Part shown: piece after piece, positions 14,760-49,441 of the stretch
How positions within the stretch are numbered: position 1 is the stretch's first letter
Layout of the letters: each line of letters starts with the position of its first letter
DNA from: an uncultured bacterium
Lineage (GTDB): Bacteria; Bacillota; Clostridia; Lachnospirales; Lachnospiraceae
Direction of reading: 5' to 3'
DNA: 57,867 bases
Assembly: GCA_947177425.1 (NCBI GenBank)
Contig: CAMWUN010000020.1
Span: 1-57,867 of the forward strand
Notes under the pieces: model-generated
Seen by the model: only the letters and a program-made list of their open reading frames with translations
Told to the model about the DNA's origin: nothing
Databases searched by the model: none
Position numbers and translations under genes: made by a program

Positions 14760-15689
14760 ATGGATATGAGACTTAAGAAAAAACCCCGGCGCAGATCCAA
14801 AAGCCTGTATCCGGTATTATATGTGATAGGAAGCCTGAAAGAATATCACCAGGAACTTGTGCAGAGTGAGGTTGCTTCCCTGTGGCAGTTAAGCATGGTG
14901 AGAAAGTCTTTTAATGATGTAATCAGGGAATCAGAGAATTTTAAAGGGACATTAGAAGGATTTGGACAGACCTTTTCAAATATTAATGACGTATCAGGCC
15001 AGTTTGCTGCCGTAAAAGATAATATTTCCCAGTCTGTGGCCCAGGCCCAGGGAGAGATAGAGGAACTGAAATATAGTTCTATCACGGTGGAAACCCATTT
15101 TGGCGAAATGCAGAATACATTTGAGGAGTTCCAGCAGTCCTTAAAAAACATTAAAGGATGTATGGGCAAGATTGTTTCCATTGCAGACCAGACCAATATC
15201 CTTTCCCTGAATGCGTCCATTGAGGCCGCAAGGGCAGGGGAGTGGGGAAAAGGATTTGCAGTGGTGGCTGAAGAGGTTAAGAAACTGTCAGAGGAAATCA
15301 AGGGCCTTGTGGCAGAGGTAGACTCCAGCATTGATGACGTGGAACAGGGGACAGAACGTTTAAGCAGCAGTATCAGCACTTCCCATGAAGCTCTGGAAAA
15401 TAGCCTTTTTAAAGTGGAAGAAACCTATGAGATGTTTGACAGTATTACGCAGGCGGCAGAGGGAGCCTCATCTGTGCAGACAGAAATTGCCCAGGTGGTT
15501 GATAATTCCAACGCTGCCCTGCAGACACTGTATGATTTTTTTGAAAATACGAAAGTACAGTACCAGGAGGTCGTGAAATATATTAACAGCGCCAGCAATT
15601 TGGGAACCACCAAAAGCGCAATGTTTGAAGATATAGACAATATGCTGTCCCAGATTCCGCCTATTATAGAGGATTATTCAAAAGGATAA
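14760..15689 (+). CDS. Soluble methyl-accepting chemotaxis-type transducer
   Basis: A 309-residue coiled-coil protein with the MCP signalling hairpin. The tip has [20 protein letters not shown] followed by [17 protein letters not shown] (about 142-180). No transmembrane segment or HAMP domain is present; the N-terminus begins with a basic run (KKKPRRRSK). It should bind CheW/CheA or a chemosensory-like kinase array in the cytoplasm. The helical bundle is short, so methylation sites may be few or absent. The ATG at 14760 (second ATG 14766) follows AGGGAGGG. It partners with the FIST protein directly upstream. No che genes lie in this window. Confidence 0.88.
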
Positions 15690-29091: not shown

Positions 29092-30267
29092 GTGAAATTG
29101 CTAATGGCGTTTATCTATAAGTATTTTAGAAACAGTCTGAATCAGATTACGCAGGAAAATCCGGTGATATTGTTGAAAAAGAAATTCTTATCTTTATTAT
29201 ATGGTTGTATCGGCAGTCTGCTGCTGTGGTTTCCCTTCTCAATTTATGCCTTCGGCGCGGAGGATTTAGATGCGCTGCTGGCAGCCTATCAGAGCTGTCA
29301 GCAGCGTTTTTCGCATGTGCAGGAACGTTCCGAGATAGAACGGTCGGGGTACGAGATTATTGCTGATCAGGTTTTTCCCATAGAAACCCGCAGTTTCGGG
29401 GAAGTATCGCTTATACCCGCCATGGATAAGGAATATCACCGGCTGGCGCTGTTTTTTGCGGATGGCGAGGGGCATATTGTGTACAAGACGGATGAACTGG
29501 AAGTCAATAACCGTTATCCCGGGGAGATGGAACAGCCTGTGAGGGAACTTCGGGCAGTGTCTTTTCAAGAACTGAACGGGGACGGGATGATGGATATTGT
29601 CCTGATTGTCACATGTGTCAACGACAGGGGCGAATACGTGGGCAGACCCTATAAGGTGGGGGATGTACTGTTCCAGAATGAGAAAGGATTTTACCGGGAT
29701 TACAGGCTGTCGGACAAAATTAACCGGTTCAGCATGAATAAGAGTGTGGAGAGCATTACTTCCTTTGTAAAGGGCGGCGATTCCACCGAGTTTCTGTATA
29801 CAGCGTCCACCAAACAGGAATTAATCAGAAACGGGTTTGAGATTGCAAAGGAACAGTGCTATTACAGACAGTTTGAAAAGCTGGGAAAGCTTGAGGTGGT
29901 GCCGGGGACTTATACCATGGCTAATTTTGCTACTTTTATGATTTATCTGGTGGATGAGCAGGGGTATATTGTGTGGAGTTTCCAGCCCATGGGGGAGTAT
30001 GACAATCTTTACGCCCTAAAAGGGATTACCTGCCGGGACATTGACGGGGACGGCATGAAGGATATTCTGGTTCTTGCCCGTTATAGTTACAGCGGGGAGA
30101 ACAACGAACTGATGGTGGAAAGCGATTATGCCATTTATTACCAGCGTACAGGCGGTTTTTACGAAGATAAGGAGATTAAGAAACAGTATCCCTGCAGTGA
30201 GGAGGATACGGTAGCGGGGCTTGTGGAAAAGGCAAGGGCCTATTGGGGGTGGAAAGCAGAAGGATGA
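29092..30267 (+). CDS. Exported protein with two FG-GAP/EF-like repeats, first gene of TCS operon
   Basis: A 391-residue protein I cannot name. A hydrophobic signal or anchor segment (about 32-52, ending IYAFGAED) points outside the cell. Two similar halves each end in a calcium-loop-like motif: LNGDGMMDIVLI (about 164-175) and IDGDGMKDILVL (about 322-333), resembling FG-GAP/VCBS-type repeats. Each half is preceded by a strand-rich segment. GTG 29092 follows AGGA; a shorter start at TTG 29173 would give a classic signal peptide, so the start is uncertain. Its last codons overlap the response regulator start at 30264. It is likely a surface sensor or accessory protein for the two-component system. 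Confidence 0.65.
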   Translation: MKLLMAFIYKYFRNSLNQITQENPVILLKKKFLSLLYGCIGSLLLWFPFSIYAFGAEDLDALLAAYQSCQQRFSHVQERSEIERSGYEIIADQVFPIETRSFGEVSLIPAMDKEYHRLALFFADGEGHIVYKTDELEVNNRYPGEMEQPVRELRAVSFQELNGDGMMDIVLIVTCVNDRGEYVGRPYKVGDVLFQNEKGFYRDYRLSDKINRFSMNKSVESITSFVKGGDSTEFLYTASTKQELIRNGFEIAKEQCYYRQFEKLGKLEVVPGTYTMANFATFMIYLVDEQGYIVWSFQPMGEYDNLYALKGITCRDIDGDGMKDILVLARYSYSGENNELMVESDYAIYYQRTGGFYEDKEIKKQYPCSEEDTVAGLVEKARAYWGWKAEG

Positions 30268-30923
30268 TAAGAATATTGATAGTGGATGATGAAAAACCGA
30301 TTTGTGATTTAATTGATTTGAATCTGTCGGCTTCCGGATACCACTGCAGGGCTGTGCAGGACGGGCTGGAAGCCATTGATCTGATAGAAAAGGAAACCTT
30401 TGATCTGATACTTCTGGATATTATGCTTCCGGGGGCGGACGGATATGACGTGATGGATTACATACGCCCTTTGAAGATACCGGTAATATTTATTACGGCA
30501 AAACATGAGGTAAAGGACAGGGTAAAGGGACTGAAGCTGGGGGCAGACGATTATCTGGTGAAGCCTTTTGATGTGGTGGAGCTTGTGGCCAGGGTGGAAG
30601 CCGTGCTCCGGCGTTACAACAAGACGGAAAGGCTCCTCACAGCAGGGGATATTGTGGCTGATGTGGAGGCCCGCCGGGTTCTGAAAAAGGGACAGCCGGT
30701 GGTCCTGACTAATAAAGAGTTCGGGCTTTTGGTACTGTTTATGCAGAATAAAAATGTGGCCCTGTTTAGGGAAACGCTGTATGAAAAGGTCTGGGGTGAC
30801 GAATATATCAGCGACAGCCGCACTTTAGATCTTCATGTGCAGCGTCTCCGGAGAAAACTTGGATGGGAACAGAATCTGGTTGCGGTGTATAAGGTTGGCT
30901 ACCGTTTGGAGGTATCAGATTGA
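30264..30923 (+). CDS. OmpR-family response regulator
   Basis: A 219-residue regulator with a receiver domain (acidic DD pair at 9-10, phosphoacceptor D52, K101 in VKPF) and a C-terminal winged helix (about 125-218) ending in RTLDLHVQRLRRKLG and the GYR motif. ATG 30264 overlaps the upstream stop by four bases (ATGA); the frame is open further upstream but not needed. It couples to the kinase at 30920. An OmpR-type regulator binds direct repeats about 11 bp apart, exactly the pattern at 33159-33220, so that array is its likely target. Confidence 0.92.
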   Translation: MIRILIVDDEKPICDLIDLNLSASGYHCRAVQDGLEAIDLIEKETFDLILLDIMLPGADGYDVMDYIRPLKIPVIFITAKHEVKDRVKGLKLGADDYLVKPFDVVELVARVEAVLRRYNKTERLLTAGDIVADVEARRVLKKGQPVVLTNKEFGLLVLFMQNKNVALFRETLYEKVWGDEYISDSRTLDLHVQRLRRKLGWEQNLVAVYKVGYRLEVSD

Positions 30924-32350
30924 AATTTTCACTAAAACTGTTACTGTGTACAGTGATTGTGCTGGCAATTGCGCTTGGGTTTAGCGGTTTTTATTTTGTA
31001 AATTATGTCTTTGACACTTCCCTTGGCAGGGAGGTGGGACAGGCGGTGGATGAAAACAGCATTTTATGTTTTGCCTTTGAGACGGCTGCCTTAAATGTGC
31101 CTGCCAAGTATGATGTCTTACAGGATCATACGGTGGAGCAGATTGCCTCTAATCTGGAAGCGGGAGGGCAGAGCAGTAACCGTATGCTCCGGCTTTCAGA
31201 CGAGGAGAAGAATAAGCTCTATGCAAGCGACGGGTTTGAGACGGACGACGGCCTGCTTATGCAGACGGATATTACCACCAAGACTTACCGTACCATTTTT
31301 ATGAATGACCATTATTATATCCAGACAGGAAGCACAGTCAATGCACTGGATCGGGTGCTTTATCTGGAAACCCTCCGGGATGTCTCGGAAGTGTTTAATG
31401 AAAGGGAACTGGGATTTCGGGTATTCCGCCAGGTGACGGTAATTATGCTGGTGTTTGGCACGGTTATCATGCATCTGATTGCCTCCTGGCTGACCAAGCC
31501 CATCCGCCTGCTTACCCGTGCTACCAAGCGTATGGCGGCCGGGGATTATGACTACCGGGCAAAACAGGTCAGTAATGACGAACTGGGACAGCTTACCCTG
31601 GACTTTAACCAGATGGCGGAAGCCCTTGAGGAGAACATTAATAAACTGGAGGATGAAATACAGGCTAAAGAGGACTTTGTAGGGGCTTTTGCCCATGAAC
31701 TGAAAACCCCTCTGACAGCCATTATCGGCTATGCGGATATGCTCCGTTCCAGGAAACTGGATGAGGAAAAAAGTCTGCTGTCCGCCAATTACATTTATAC
31801 AGAGGGCAAAAGGCTGGAAGCCATGTCCATCAGGCTCCTTGATATTATGGTGACAAGGCACGGGCAGGCCCAGTTCCAGGAGGTGCAGGCGGAGAACCTT
31901 TTCCTTTATCTCAGGGATATGTTTAAGACAAATGAGAGTATGCAGTTTGTCTATTCTTACGATAAGGCGGTGGTGTGGGTGGAAAGTAATCTGATTATCA
32001 CTGTGCTTATCAATCTTCTTGATAATGCCTGCAAAGCATCGGAACCGGGAAGCCTTATTGAAGTCACTGGAACCAGCGGGGAAGAGGGCTACCGTTTTAA
32101 TGTAAAAGACCATGGCATGGGTATACCGGAAAAGGAGCTTGCCAAGATTACAAAAGCTTTTTATATGGTGGACAAATCCAGAAGCAGAAGCAGGAACGGA
32201 GCCGGCCTGGGGCTGGCCTTATGTACGGAGATACTTTCCCTCCACGGCAGCAGCCTTGAAATTGCAAGTAAAGTGGGGGAAGGCACCAGCATCAGCTTTG
32301 TGATACCGGACCGGGGAAAGGAGGAGGAACATGAAGAAATCCACCATTAA
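30920..32350 (+). CDS. Sensor histidine kinase with HAMP domain
   Basis: A 476-residue membrane kinase: TM1 at about 4-24, an extracytoplasmic sensor of about 150 residues, TM2 at about 172-192, HAMP domain (WLTKPIRLLTRATKRMAAGDY), HisKA with H259 in FAHELKTPL, and a HATPase domain (N box NLLDNACKA, G boxes DHGMGIP and GAGLGLAL). Translation starts at TTG 30920, overlapping the regulator stop, with GGAGGT six bases upstream. It overlaps the next gene by 20 bases. It should phosphorylate the regulator at 30264. Confidence 0.92.
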   Translation: MKFSLKLLLCTVIVLAIALGFSGFYFVNYVFDTSLGREVGQAVDENSILCFAFETAALNVPAKYDVLQDHTVEQIASNLEAGGQSSNRMLRLSDEEKNKLYASDGFETDDGLLMQTDITTKTYRTIFMNDHYYIQTGSTVNALDRVLYLETLRDVSEVFNERELGFRVFRQVTVIMLVFGTVIMHLIASWLTKPIRLLTRATKRMAAGDYDYRAKQVSNDELGQLTLDFNQMAEALEENINKLEDEIQAKEDFVGAFAHELKTPLTAIIGYADMLRSRKLDEEKSLLSANYIYTEGKRLEAMSIRLLDIMVTRHGQAQFQEVQAENLFLYLRDMFKTNESMQFVYSYDKAVVWVESNLIITVLINLLDNACKASEPGSLIEVTGTSGEEGYRFNVKDHGMGIPEKELAKITKAFYMVDKSRSRSRNGAGLGLALCTEILSLHGSSLEIASKVGEGTSISFVIPDRGKEEEHEEIHH

Positions 32351-33161
32351 TTATTTCCTCTTCGTCTTTGCCGTACTTGTGATGGGTGCTTCCATCTGGG
32401 GGCCGGAGTTCATTACCAGATACAAGGACAGGACAGTTCTTGACCGGATTCATACCCAGACCTCCGAACAGGAGGGGGCAGGCTACCGCTATAAACTTGA
32501 CAGAAATGAAAAGCTTTATATTCTTTCCCAGTGCTTGAACAGCCAGAGTCTTCCCGAAAGTGAACTGAACGCCCTGACAAGGGTGGAGGGGGAAGCCGCG
32601 GAATATCAGGAGGTCAGCGGAACTTATGCTTTTGTGGCGGACCGCAGGGGAACTACCGGAAAAGAAATCACCGATGAAGAGATTTATACGATTTGTAATG
32701 AAATGCTGCAGGAGCTGAAGGATTTGGGGATTTTATCCAGAACTGTGCGGTCTGTAAATGGCGGGGATTATGATGCAGTTCTTTACTCAGCCATTGATGT
32801 GCTGGAGCCCCGGAACAATGTTGCCGTGTGGAAGGTAAGCTTATCTACCAACAAGATGAATGCGGACAAGGCAAACCGTCTGATAGACGCTTATCTGGAT
32901 GCGGACGATGGCAAGCCTTATGAATTTTATGCCAGAACAGACCAGAAATGGGAGGATATAAACCCCGATGAGATTATAGAAAAATGGAGAACATACATGG
33001 GGCTTGGCGCTCCCACACCTTACGAAACAGACAATCCCCTGCTGGAGACGACGCCTTACTACAAAAAGTATGTTTTTGCAGGCATGGGGGAGGAGAGAAC
33101 CATTGTCACCATTGGATTTTATGAGGGAATCAATGAGCTGTTTCTGAAGATTTCAAGATGA
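32331..33161 (+). CDS. Membrane-anchored protein of unknown function, last gene of TCS operon
   Basis: A 276-residue protein with one N-terminal hydrophobic segment (about 7-26) and a long outside domain; no family recognised. The start ATG 32331 lies inside the kinase gene with GGAGGAGG just upstream. Tight overlaps show it is part of the two-component operon, probably an accessory sensor or regulator of the kinase. Its stop codon TGA is the first three bases of the TGATGCA array. Confidence 0.7.
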   Translation: MKKSTINYFLFVFAVLVMGASIWGPEFITRYKDRTVLDRIHTQTSEQEGAGYRYKLDRNEKLYILSQCLNSQSLPESELNALTRVEGEAAEYQEVSGTYAFVADRRGTTGKEITDEEIYTICNEMLQELKDLGILSRTVRSVNGGDYDAVLYSAIDVLEPRNNVAVWKVSLSTNKMNADKANRLIDAYLDADDGKPYEFYARTDQKWEDINPDEIIEKWRTYMGLGAPTPYETDNPLLETTPYYKKYVFAGMGEERTIVTIGFYEGINELFLKISR

Positions 33162-33220
33162 TGCAGATTTGATGCAAAAATTATGGAATTATGATGCAAC
33201 TTTGATGTTAAAATGATGCA
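33159..33220 (+). promoter_or_regulatory. Six phased TGATGCA heptamers (11-bp period)
   Basis: Heptamers start at 33159, 33170, 33181, 33192, 33203 and 33214. Four are exact TGATGCA; the one at 33181 is TTATGGA and the one at 33203 is TGATGTT. Every spacer is four bases, so all lie on one face of the helix. This is the layout of OmpR/PhoB-type activator sites. A possible -10 box TAAGAT at 33230-33235 places the last copy over the -35 region, as for an activator. The regulated gene would be the cell-wall enzyme at 33350. Confidence 0.85.
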
Positions 33221-33349
33221 CCGCATATGTAAGATAAACCATAAGAAAACAGCCGGACAGACAGCAGAATGAAGCTGGGCGCAAGAGGCTTTATCAAGCT
33301 GTTTTACCAAGCGTATTGTGGATGAATACATGTAAGGAGCATCATTTTT

Positions 33350-34807
33350 ATGAGTACAAAAGCAAAAGAAAATGAAAAAAGCAAAAGAGGACATAGATAC
33401 CAGAGAAACTGGTTCAGACATATAGGCATTGTTTTATTTTCAGGGGCAGTCTGTATCTTTTCCTGTGTGGCTACCATTTCCATGGCGGCCCCGGAAAACC
33501 CGGAAATAGAAGCCATGATGGAGGAAAAAAAGGCCGGGGAGCAGGAAGTCCTTTCAGAGACAGATCCTGCCCCTTCGTCCGGTTCTAAGAATTACGAAGC
33601 TTTGATGGTTAAGGATGAAAAAAGCAGCATTCCTCTTATTGTGATAGATCCGGGACATGGGGGAGAGGATGACGGCTGTCTTGGGGACGGCGTTTTTGAA
33701 AAGGACATCAATCTTCAGATTGCCCTTCTGGTAAAGGAACGGCTGGAGGAAAAGGGATTCCGGGTTATGCTGCCCAGGGAGACGGATGAATATCTGGCCA
33801 AGGAGGAGCGGGTAGAGTTGGCAAACAGCTATCAGGCAGATGCCTATATCAGCATCCACCAGAATACCTATGAGGGCAGCGACAAGAGTGTCAGCGGTAT
33901 TGAAACATGGTATGACGGATCCGACAACACCAGGGACAATCAGAGACTTGCCAGCTTGATCCACAAAGAAACTATAAAGAGCACAGGGGCAAATGAGAGG
34001 GAACTGTGGCCCATAGCGGATTTTTGTGTGACAGGCAAGACGCTGATGCCTGCCTGTCTCATTGAGACAGGATTTCTGTCAAACCCGGAAGAATGCAAAA
34101 GGCTGACCGACAAAGAATATCAGAATAAAGTGGCAGAGGGGATTGCGCAGGGAGTTGATCTGTACTTTCATCCAAAGACCATGTACCTGACCTTTGACGA
34201 CGGGCCCTCCAAAGAATATACGGAACAGATACTGGACGTTCTGAAAGAGAAGGATGTAAAGGCAACCTTTTTCCTTATCGGCGAATATGTGGAAAAATAT
34301 CCCCAGGTGGCAAAGCGGATTGCCGATGAGGGACACACCATAGGCATCCATTGTTACCGTCATGACTACGACATACTGTATGAAAGTGTGGAGAGTTATC
34401 TGGAAGACTTCTGGAAGGCTTATGACGCCGTTCTTGTTGCCACCGGAGTGGAAGCAGAGTTATTCCGTTTCCCGGGAGGAAGCGTAAATGCATATAATAA
34501 AGATACCTGTGCAGACATTGTAAAGGAAATGACGGCACAGGGCTTTATTTATTTTGACTGGAATGCCAGCCTGGACGATACTGTCAAGAATCCGGGTCCG
34601 GCCCAGATTCTTGCAAATGCGGCGGCTTCCACACTGGACAGAAAAAAAGTGGTGATGCTTGCCCATGACAGAGTGGAAAATACTGCCCTGTGTCTGGGCG
34701 ATTTGATTGACCAGTTCCCAGAGTATCAGATTAAGCCTTTAAATGCAAAAATTGAACCTGTCCATTTCCGCCTGCCTGCCCATCCGGGTGCTAATTCTGA
34801 AAATTGA
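33350..34807 (+). CDS. N-acetylmuramoyl-L-alanine amidase fused to polysaccharide deacetylase
   Basis: A 485-residue exported wall enzyme. A membrane segment (about 24-45) is followed by a linker, an Amidase_3 domain (about 95-275) with zinc/catalytic H103, E117, H170 and E239, and a NodB deacetylase domain (about 278-470) with the D283-D284 pair, H334-x3-H338, RFPGG, the DWNASLDD segment and LAHD. The first half cuts the peptide from the glycan; the second removes N-acetyl groups. Having both on one chain suggests coordinated trimming during wall remodelling. ATG 33350 follows AAGGAG. The phased TGATGCA array upstream implies control by a response regulator, likely that of the operon just before it. 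Confidence 0.92.
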   Translation: MSTKAKENEKSKRGHRYQRNWFRHIGIVLFSGAVCIFSCVATISMAAPENPEIEAMMEEKKAGEQEVLSETDPAPSSGSKNYEALMVKDEKSSIPLIVIDPGHGGEDDGCLGDGVFEKDINLQIALLVKERLEEKGFRVMLPRETDEYLAKEERVELANSYQADAYISIHQNTYEGSDKSVSGIETWYDGSDNTRDNQRLASLIHKETIKSTGANERELWPIADFCVTGKTLMPACLIETGFLSNPEECKRLTDKEYQNKVAEGIAQGVDLYFHPKTMYLTFDDGPSKEYTEQILDVLKEKDVKATFFLIGEYVEKYPQVAKRIADEGHTIGIHCYRHDYDILYESVESYLEDFWKAYDAVLVATGVEAELFRFPGGSVNAYNKDTCADIVKEMTAQGFIYFDWNASLDDTVKNPGPAQILANAAASTLDRKKVVMLAHDRVENTALCLGDLIDQFPEYQIKPLNAKIEPVHFRLPAHPGANSEN

Positions 34808-39462: not shown

Positions 39463-39579
39463 TGACATAAGGACCGTTAGCGGAGCGAACTGCCCGCTGC
39501 CTGACATAAGGACAATTGGCAAAGCATGCTGTCCGTTGTCTGGCATAAGGACTGTTAGCTTCTCAAACTGTCCGTTGTC
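39463..39579 (-). repeat. Family C: three tandem 39-base hairpin units
   Basis: Units 39463-39501, 39502-39540 and 39541-39579 share the minus-strand pattern CAGACAACGGACAGTTTG, a variable middle, and CTAACRGTCCTTATG. Each folds on GGACA/TGTCC-type arms. On the minus strand the array begins two bases after the nitroreductase stop codon (TAACAGACAACGG). Since 39 is a multiple of three, all units are open in one frame and read as a 13-residue peptide repeat ending LTVLM. A diverged single copy is at 50744. Confidence 0.85.
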
Positions 39580-47295: not shown

Positions 47296-48105
47296 ATGGA
47301 TGAGATTCGGATAGAAAATCTTGAGGTTTACGGAGCCCATGGGGTTCTTCCAGAAGAAACCAGAAACGGCCAGATGTTTATGATTAATGCGGTGCTGTAT
47401 ACGGGCCTTCGGCCTGCAGGGATGGCGGACGATCTTGCCTTATCCACCCACTACGGCCATGTATGCCAGTTTATGAACCAGTACATGAGGGAGCATACGT
47501 TTCTTCTGATTGAAGCGGCGGCGGAACATCTGGCAAGGGAAGTGCTCCTTAAATTTCCTTTAGTGCAAAATCTGGCCCTGGAACTGAAAAAGCCCCATGC
47601 GCCCATCGGTCTGCCTTTTTCTTGTGTATCTGTAAAGATTGAGCGCGGATGGAAAAGGGTGTATCTGGGTATCGGCTCCAATATGGGCGACAAGCAGGCT
47701 TTTTTGGATGGAGCGGTAAGGAAGTTAAAGAAGAACCCTGAAATAAAGGATGTCAAATGTTCCGGGTTTATCAGGACAGCCCCTTATGGGGGAGTGGAAC
47801 AGGATGACTTCCTGAATGGGGCCGTAGAACTGCGGACACTGCTTCCGCCCTATGAACTTCTGGAATTTTTACACCAGTTGGAAGGGGAAGCAGGCAGGGA
47901 GCGGAAAGTCCGCTGGGGCCCAAGGACGCTGGATTTGGATATATTATTTTATGAGGATTTTGTTTCCGGCGATCCGGTACTGACAGTGCCTCACCCGGAT
48001 ATGGCAAACAGGGAATTTGTGCTGAAACCTCTGGATGAGTTATGCCCTTGGCAGTTAAATCCTGTGAACGGGAAGACCGTCAGACAGATGCTTATGGAAC
48101 TGTAA
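47296..48105 (+). CDS. folBK: Dihydroneopterin aldolase-HPPK fusion
   Basis: A 269-residue bifunctional enzyme: FolB (about 1-117; IENLEVYGAHGVLPEE, catalytic lysine in LKKPHAP) and FolK (about 118-269; LGIGSNMGDK, RWGPRTLDLDILFY, VPHPDM). It makes hydroxymethyl-dihydropterin and then its pyrophosphate for FolP. Such fusions are known in clostridia. GGAGG precedes ATG 47296. Its stop codon TAA is the first three bases of a family A repeat. Confidence 0.94.
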   Translation: MDEIRIENLEVYGAHGVLPEETRNGQMFMINAVLYTGLRPAGMADDLALSTHYGHVCQFMNQYMREHTFLLIEAAAEHLAREVLLKFPLVQNLALELKKPHAPIGLPFSCVSVKIERGWKRVYLGIGSNMGDKQAFLDGAVRKLKKNPEIKDVKCSGFIRTAPYGGVEQDDFLNGAVELRTLLPPYELLEFLHQLEGEAGRERKVRWGPRTLDLDILFYEDFVSGDPVLTVPHPDMANREFVLKPLDELCPWQLNPVNGKTVRQMLMEL

Positions 48106-48177
48106 CAAACGCTGCCAGGCTTCGCGAGCCGGCTTATTGTAACAAACGCAGTCACGCTTCGCGAGCCAGCTTATTGT
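48103..48177 (-). repeat. Family A hairpin repeats, copies 3 and 4 (tandem)
   Basis: Two tandem units (48103-48140 and 48140-48177) in the minus orientation, each TAACAAACGC followed by the CTTCGCGAGC core and ending GGCTTATTGT or CAGCTTATTGT. The first unit's TAA is the folBK stop codon. Confidence 0.9.
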
Positions 48178-48185
48178 AATAAAAA

Positions 48186-49330: not shown

Positions 49331-49441
49331 ACATAAGCTGACTCACAGAGTGTGACAGCGCTTGCTACAATAAGCCGGCTCACGAAGTGCGGCAGCGTTT
49401 GCTACAATAAGCTGGCTCACGAAGTGTGGCAGCGTTTGTTA
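49331..49441 (+). repeat. Family A hairpin repeats, copies 5-7 (tandem)
   Basis: Three head-to-tail units (49331-49366, 49367-49403, 49404-49441) of 36-38 bases, each ACAATAAGCYGGCTCACGAA then GTGYGGCAGCGTTTGYTA. They lie between the divergent DUF5050 and pheA starts. There are no spacers, so this is not a CRISPR. The last unit contains GTGGCA 17 bases before TATAAT (49449-49454), so it may supply the pheA -35 box. Confidence 0.88.

Follow-up and report, generated by a model that had tools for sequence, protein, structure and literature searches.

Heptamer arrays with an 11-bp period mark the promoters of a lineage-specific set of cell-surface genes in gut Lachnospiraceae

Genes and repeats at the locus

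The window, that is, the whole stretch of 57,867 nucleotides analysed here, carries a run of short direct repeats between a regulator operon and a cell wall enzyme gene. The genes, the repeats and the −10 box that follows them are listed below.

29092..30267, + strand: protein of 391 aa with a weak FG-GAP match (below the cut-off), just upstream of the regulator
30264..30923, + strand: OmpR/PhoB-type response regulator (PF00072 and PF00486), the candidate activator; the frame is open from 30243
30920..32350, + strand: sensor histidine kinase (HAMP, HisKA and HATPase_c)
32331..33161, + strand: protein of 276 aa, third gene after those of the regulator and kinase; no Pfam match, N-terminal helix in the structural model
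33159..33165, + strand: heptamer 1, TGATGCA; the upstream gene ends in its TGA (stop codon)
33170..33176, + strand: heptamer 2, TGATGCA
33181..33187, + strand: heptamer 3, TTATGGA, two differences
33192..33198, + strand: heptamer 4, TGATGCA
33203..33209, + strand: heptamer 5, TGATGTT, two differences
33214..33220, + strand: heptamer 6, TGATGCA, promoter-proximal
33230..33235, + strand: −10 box TAAGAT, 9 bp past the last heptamer; TANNNT is conserved at that distance
33350..34807, + strand: amidase (PF01520) and polysaccharide deacetylase (PF01522), 485 aa, assigned by Pfam

The preliminary description of this DNA placed heptamers at 33159, 33170, 33181, 33192, 33203 and 33214 with 4-base spacers, and counted four of the six as exact and two as off at two positions. 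Re-reading of the sequence bears out each of these points; the spacers are, in order, GATT, AAAA, ATTA, ACTT and AAAA, and the period is 11 bp. The array was also rightly said to open in a stop codon, the TGA of heptamer 1 terminating the 276-aa gene (32331-33161), and the same opening at the stop codon of the upstream gene is seen in 33 of the 77 named loci evaluated (the named loci being the best 80 of 266). The extent given for the array, 33159..33235, is right at its start but not at its end: the array stops at 33220, and it is the −10 box that extends to 33235. This box, the even unit numbers and the hairpin described below are features of the window promoter that were absent from that description.

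The 30264 regulator is a member of the OmpR/PhoB family, with a receiver domain (PF00072, 103.3 bits) and a winged-helix Trans_reg_C domain (PF00486, 74.9 bits). It lies below the cut-offs for PhoB (TIGR02154; 192.1 vs 296.2 bits), WalR/YycF (NF040534; 178.9 vs 340 bits) and VanR (NF033117; 176.7 vs 350 bits), and the neighbouring kinase lies below that for WalK (NF033092; 190.1 vs 725 bits). Two other regulators of this genome have higher YycF scores (262 and 245), which are likewise under the cut-off. The closest named relative found for the regulator is from Lachnospiraceae bacterium 1XD21-87 (99%), and further relatives come from Parablautia, Acetatifactor and other Lachnospiraceae. In two related genomes the regulator match includes a stop, which lies before the start codon in G005 and at the last matched codon in G019; the gene does not look broken in either.

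The third gene (32331-33161) is conserved together with the regulator-kinase pair. The structural model of its product is weak (mean pLDDT 57.7), with the C-terminal domain of YpeB as the top structural match (probability 0.95, E 0.047), and the protein is perhaps a PepSY-like sensor partner; its candidacy as a WalHI-like partner was set aside as only a lead, given the weak model and the E value of the YpeB match. Elsewhere in the window, two arrays of a 37-bp unit (48101-48183 and 49333-49438) lie about 1.2 kb apart in apparently opposite orientation, and a 39-bp unit is present in 2.5 copies at 39463-39559. Two open reading frames of the same genome (L012, around 5273, and L013, around 10802, both on the − strand) have a nearly identical LPKA-FDGFLHVTGHGVN start, perhaps a repeated DNA element that is read through.

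Heptamer arrays, their targets and their promoters

Within the window alone, a search with a two-unit pattern allowing 3 mismatches was uninformative (10 seen vs 7.97 expected). With three units and at most 2 mismatches, the pattern is matched by 31 of 37 same-genus genomes, including the one studied here, against none of the 37 for the same pattern read backwards as a control, and the window array is therefore real and not a product of chance. This search of related genomes, proposed in the preliminary description together with a survey of the genes that follow, found downstream of the arrays mostly genes whose products have hydrophobic N-termini. In the genome to which the window belongs, the two-unit pattern recovered arrays of the same build at the following places.

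C5: before a gene for an LRR protein
C10: before a gene for a VIT/VWA protein, followed by exosortase K
C11, two units only: before a gene for a BspA-type LRR protein
C39: before a gene for a 342-aa protein, with a LysM protein encoded next
C48: before a gene for a second polysaccharide deacetylase

A further heptamer pair (C62:15269) lies within a coding sequence, lacks a −10 box and was excluded by hand. The exosortase K gene adjoins that of the VIT/VWA surface protein (L010:5195-8134, − strand) inside the heptamer-array regulon; none of the exosortase K literature among the matches listed is related.

With 60 further array regions added to the earlier loci, from this genome and its relatives, 98 loci were scanned (L009-L013, L015-L044, L185-L187 and L258-L317; drawn from the matches listed, which favours strong arrays) and yielded 85 distinct arrays. 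A minimum strength was required and identical sequences were merged, and orthologues are included, so that counts in this set are not independent. The 83 downstream proteins that could be extracted for this set, likewise from the matches listed, fall into 26 clusters, whose representatives include an LtaS-like sulfatase, with an LtaS score of 102 bits far under the cut-off of 970, and proteins of the LRR, WG-repeat, RCC1, LysM and FG-GAP types; no Pfam match was obtained for several representatives. By a crude measure, 79 of the 83 target proteins have an N-terminal hydrophobic stretch, compared with 18 of 48 mechanically defined open reading frames of the window. One target that departs from the pattern is an MgsA-like ATPase, whose gene follows a two-unit array, a site that may be due to chance.

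Collectively, the heptamer repeat with its 11-base period is the mark of a lineage-specific group of promoters that belong to cell-surface genes. The array does stand before a cell wall enzyme gene, as first described, but the view of a single promoter was too narrow, the window array being one promoter of a regulon. The result is a genus-level regulon of gut Lachnospiraceae with its operator, promoter, likely regulator and targets, the last comprising the wall amidase, deacetylases, the LtaS-like sulfatase, exosortase K and surface LRR proteins. Judged by titles and the opening of abstracts, and with subscription papers mostly outside coverage, searches on the motif, the site architecture or a Lachnospiraceae envelope regulon returned no paper on this system; the matches listed in a broader search concerned known systems such as WalKR and MtrAB.

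The arrays are rigidly placed relative to the promoter. TANNNT stands exactly 9 bp past the last heptamer in 62 of 62 arrays with an exact last unit (from the matches listed), a figure free of any adjustment of units guided by the −10 box, and in 73 of the 85 arrays when nothing is adjusted; the count of 85 of 85 is partly by construction, a trailing in-register unit having been dropped in 11 arrays and a unit added in 1. At control distances of 100-139 bp, the number of the 85 arrays with TANNNT averages 1.4 and never exceeds 4; for the other distances below 40 bp, the maximum is 13. No −35 box was found at 16-18 bp, where the best match to TTGACA is at most 3 of 6 in all 73 promoters examined (from the matches listed).

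The arrays are also built almost exclusively of even numbers of units. Among the 85 listed, the unit number is 4 in 58, 6 in 16, 2 in 6, 5 in 3 and 3 in 2, and is thus even in 80; with exact-ended arrays only, it is even in 58, 58 and 53 of 62 at three thresholds. The preliminary description considered six units to exceed the usual two to four, but six is the second commonest number here. An anchor was obtained for 72 of the 80 named loci (a fallback anchor in four), and 68 of the 80 have TA at the −10 position. In these 72 amidase promoters (best 80 of 266), there are 6 units in 38, 4 in 18, 8 in 3 and 2 in 2, with odd or short counts of 3 in 3, 5 in 1 and 7 in 1, and a count that stopped at 1 in 6. 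We infer, as the simplest reading, that even counts represent whole dimer sites, and the rule makes the number of dimers per promoter testable on natural 4-, 6- and 8-unit variants of one and the same promoter.

In 44 strong named orthologues (best 80 of 266), the information content per position is 1.42-1.77 bits for the heptamers, with a nearly invariant ATG core, and 0.80-1.00 for the spacers, in agreement with the earlier expectation that functional heptamers would be better conserved than spacers. That expectation holds only in part for the 28 weak named orthologues: three of four units conform (1.00 vs 0.91, 1.07 vs 0.72 and 1.38 vs 0.72 bits), whereas the fourth is reversed, the heptamer having 1.22 and the spacer 1.33 bits. 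Several weak-array orthologues are deposited as Acetatifactor; their 11-bp register is kept and the words drift. An altered recognition helix in the species with degenerate arrays was considered and rejected, the helix being nearly identical in both groups.

An array-like score was obtained in 70 of the 71 named loci with the amidase just downstream (best 80 of 266), and six named loci are without an amidase in the searched range. One of these six, L090, has a six-unit array at 15058 and an amidase start at 15219, each displaced onward by about 2.1 kb relative to the usual position; the remaining five have neither amidase nor array in the locus. Thus, the array travels with the amidase gene and not with the regulator operon.

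A predicted hairpin at the amidase gene

Three further features bear on the RNA that leads into the amidase gene.

33210..33219, + strand: AAAATGATGC, 5' arm of the read-through hairpin, including most of heptamer 6
33334..33339, + strand: AAGGAG, the ribosome site, three of whose six bases are paired in the predicted read-through fold, all six lying inside the helix
33339..33348, + strand: GCATCATTTT, 3' arm of the hairpin, which shares its first base with the end of the ribosome site and stops just ahead of the start codon

In the window, the arms AAAATGATGC and GCATCATTTT pair perfectly, and the unpaired bases of AAGGAG sit in small bulges of the same predicted helix. The fold of the read-through RNA has -43.5 kcal/mol and a z score of -4.18, compared with -0.62 for the RNA that starts after the −10 box. 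The same holds across 69 loci (68 named ones, from the best 80 of 266, and the window): the mean z score is -3.77 for read-through RNA, with 55 of 69 below -2, and -0.26 for own-start RNA, with 6 of 69 below -2. The stem beats all 20 dinucleotide shuffles in 41 of the 69 loci, where 3.3 would be expected. Strong stems, with 37 different 5' arms, were found at 51 loci and not at the other 18; among the 51, there is a T-run in 21, an ATG within 8 nt in 31 and, inside the 3' arm or next to it, a word resembling a ribosome site in 39.

At ten loci, four of them deposited as Acetatifactor, the best stem spans 43 nt and forms a helix of 20 pairs, of which 8 are changed on both sides, with slid controls much lower. 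Compensated cells in this set number 21, compared with 7.8 +/- 2.3 in shuffles (0 of 500); the loci were chosen by their stem, which favours the paired percentage and, less directly, the compensated changes. A T-run follows the hairpin in most of the ten, resembling a terminator. In the window, a standard terminator scan (loops of 3-8) of the + strand found none, and termination at the window hairpin is unlikely because its loop exceeds 100 nt.

The hairpin as a feature of the whole regulon was considered and rejected. At 73 other regulon promoters (from the matches listed), read-through RNA has a mean z score of -1.05, with 20 of 73 below -2, and own-start RNA one of -0.36, with 10 of 73 below -2; because the effect there is weak, we claim the hairpin for the amidase locus only, where the array directly follows the regulator operon. 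As a separate observation, L286, L299 and L305 carry stems and then T-runs just past the −10 box, as in attenuator-like leaders of other regulon genes. A literature search on promoter-terminator overlap combined with hiding of the ribosome site gave, among the matches listed and by title and abstract start, no paper with such an arrangement. From the predicted folds, the hairpin would silence read-through from the regulator operon and spare the mRNA started at the array.

Proposed control and relation to known systems

An orthologue of the 30264 regulator (82-100% identity) is present in 29 of the 37 same-genus genomes, and all 29 carry arrays, as do 2 of the 8 genomes without it (G006 and G011; Fisher 1.2e-5, kinship ignored). 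Among 392 genomes of the order, one of them the genome studied here, the regulator occurs in 8 others. Strict arrays (at most 1 mismatch) are found outside the genus in 1 of these 8 and in none of the remaining 383 genomes; the 7 regulator-bearing genomes without strict arrays count against the pairing of regulator and array. In a one-locus tree of 21 of the 37 genomes, some nodes of which are weak, regulator-free genomes pair in at least three places among the bearers, so that loss of the regulator and loss of the arrays seem to have coincided more than once. No array was found before the regulator operon itself, as autoregulation would have it. Taken together, these distributions partly support the preliminary description, which had the regulator encoded upstream bind here and activate the amidase gene, and point to this neighbouring regulator as the best candidate binder, whose identity we infer rather than assert because of the two exceptions. 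G006 has two full arrays, one upstream of VIT/exosortase genes and the other upstream of a 549-aa gene; in G011, a single two-unit array precedes a putative lipoprotein gene. The best regulator matches of the two genomes, at about 44% and 43%, represent no close orthologue, and both genomes also lack the third gene and the full amidase-deacetylase. These arrays may be relics, may reflect a gap in the assembly or may serve another regulator.

That the arrays serve as operators of another OmpR/PhoB-type regulator, with its gene at a different place in the genome, and that the neighbouring pair is only co-inherited, is the wider form of this last possibility and seems to us unlikely. In its favour, beside the arrays of G006 and G011, are 34 matches to the OmpR-type DNA-binding domain in the genome studied here and in particular the KdpE-like C83 of this genome (G000; 223 bits vs a cut-off of 325). 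For C83, the reciprocal comparison gave a best match in G006 (63%) and one in G011 (74%), but no counterpart among the proteins compared from G004 (7) and G026 (5). That comparison comprised 67 proteins, four loci giving none, and covered 8 of 12 G004 and 6 of 13 G026 matches. Another candidate, the VanR-like regulator, was rejected as the binder, being universal: all 35 genomes in which it was sought have it, among them the six without arrays. For the neighbouring regulator, by contrast, its loss and that of the arrays go together at three or more points of the one-locus tree, and the sole strict-array genome outside the genus has this regulator. Several of the genomes that lack it are, however, also without regulator C45 (a 56-61% relative of the VanR-like one), and co-occurrence is therefore not proof.

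The action of the bound protein and of the hairpin can be read in other ways as well. A repressor that silences the regulon when bound would fit the position of the last heptamer between the −35 and −10 positions, where it could block the polymerase, but we regard this as quite improbable: with no −35-like hexamer in 73 of 73 promoters (from the matches listed), the unaided promoter would be weak, and the fixed 9 bp to the −10 box in 62 of 62 arrays suggests contact with the polymerase. Still less can be said for a neutral tandem repeat or mobile element, an idea that the regular period and the differing unit numbers between species might suggest and that is hardly credible when the ATG core and the 11-bp register are held across species, the spacers diverge and the distance from the −10 boxes of unrelated genes is fixed. 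The inverted repeat might, for its part, be only the intrinsic terminator of the regulator operon, overlapping the promoter and without a role in translation. The ten loci of one geometry, with a hairpin of up to 20 pairs and a T-run after most, speak for this alternative, which we nonetheless hold doubtful; the start codon follows the 3' arm directly in the window and many loci, the loops are long, and 39 of 51 strong stems have a ribosome-site-like word within the arm or next to it, all of which is better explained by occlusion. Termination and occlusion alike insulate the amidase gene.

We therefore return to activation. The array is probably the operator of an activator-dependent promoter in a cell-surface regulon, bound most likely by the 30264 regulator, with a read-through hairpin at the amidase gene. 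As judged from the protein families, a signal would pass through the kinase to the regulator, which, once phosphorylated, would bind the heptamers head-to-tail. The 11-bp register and the evenness suggest that dimers fill pairs of heptamers, and operators would be even because one dimer fills 22 bp. The fixed 9-bp distance suggests that the promoter-proximal dimer stands in for the absent −35 box and brings RNA polymerase to the −10 box; upstream dimers would contribute cooperativity. At the amidase-deacetylase gene, the last heptamer, in many relatives together with the −10 box, also encodes the 5' arm of the predicted hairpin. Read-through RNA from the regulator operon would then fold, so that the ribosome site is blocked or, where a T-run follows, transcription ends, and RNA from the array promoter, presumably started past the 5' arm, would be free of it and translated. 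With read-through RNA locked and array-started RNA free, the wall enzyme would be made only when the array promoter fires.

In its most specific form, the proposal is that of a lineage-specific surface regulon with whole-dimer operators (2, 4, 6 or 8 heptamers) rigidly spaced from the −10 box, in which the operator-promoter DNA at the wall-enzyme gene also supplies the 5' half of an RNA lock; on balance, we lean slightly towards it. If true, the amidase gene would answer to one activator alone, transcripts from upstream being locked and activator-started ones free, and a single stretch of DNA would be under two constraints together, as operator and as part of an RNA lock.

Late genes of phage T4 offer a precedent for such a lock: hairpins that hide the ribosome site silence the longer RNA started upstream, and RNA from the proximal promoter is translated. 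The amidase gene is predicted to resemble them in its silent read-through RNA and translated proximal-promoter RNA; unlike in T4, the 5' arm is an activator operator, with or without the −10 box, and the gene is one for a bacterial wall enzyme. As to the operator, the preliminary description rightly recognized the geometry of OmpR/PhoB-type repeats, that is, direct repeats with 11-bp spacing near a promoter. The E. coli pho box sits about 10 bp before the −10 box, and the 9-bp distance from array to −10 box thus gives a geometry close to it.

The PHO box of PhoB/PhoP is described as two 7-nt direct repeats with 4-nt spacers, forming 11-nt units bound head-to-tail in tandem, with several units at some promoters (PMC4415409). 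The heptamer arrays share the 7-nt direct repeats, the 4-nt spacers and the 11-nt units, and differ from what is described there in the word TGATGCA, in the nearly always even number of units, mostly 4 or 6, in their surface-protein targets and in the regulator (192 vs the PhoB cut-off of 296). For E. coli ArcA, 66 sites have two repeats and 92 have between three and five, with three a frequent number (PMC3798270); both systems use direct repeats of the OmpR/PhoB family with an 11-bp period and frequently go beyond two, but odd counts occur in only 5 of the 85 heptamer arrays (from the matches listed). WalKR (YycFG) is a two-component system for wall enzymes with the WalR motif TGTHH-N6-WGTNDD, and in S. 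aureus WalR also reaches lipoteichoic acid (LTA) synthesis (PMC10746227). The system described here, with its candidate regulator, is likewise a two-component system beside wall-enzyme targets, and it is set apart from WalKR, as described there, by the word TGATGCA and by the scores of its kinase (190 vs the WalK cut-off of 725) and regulator (179 vs 340).
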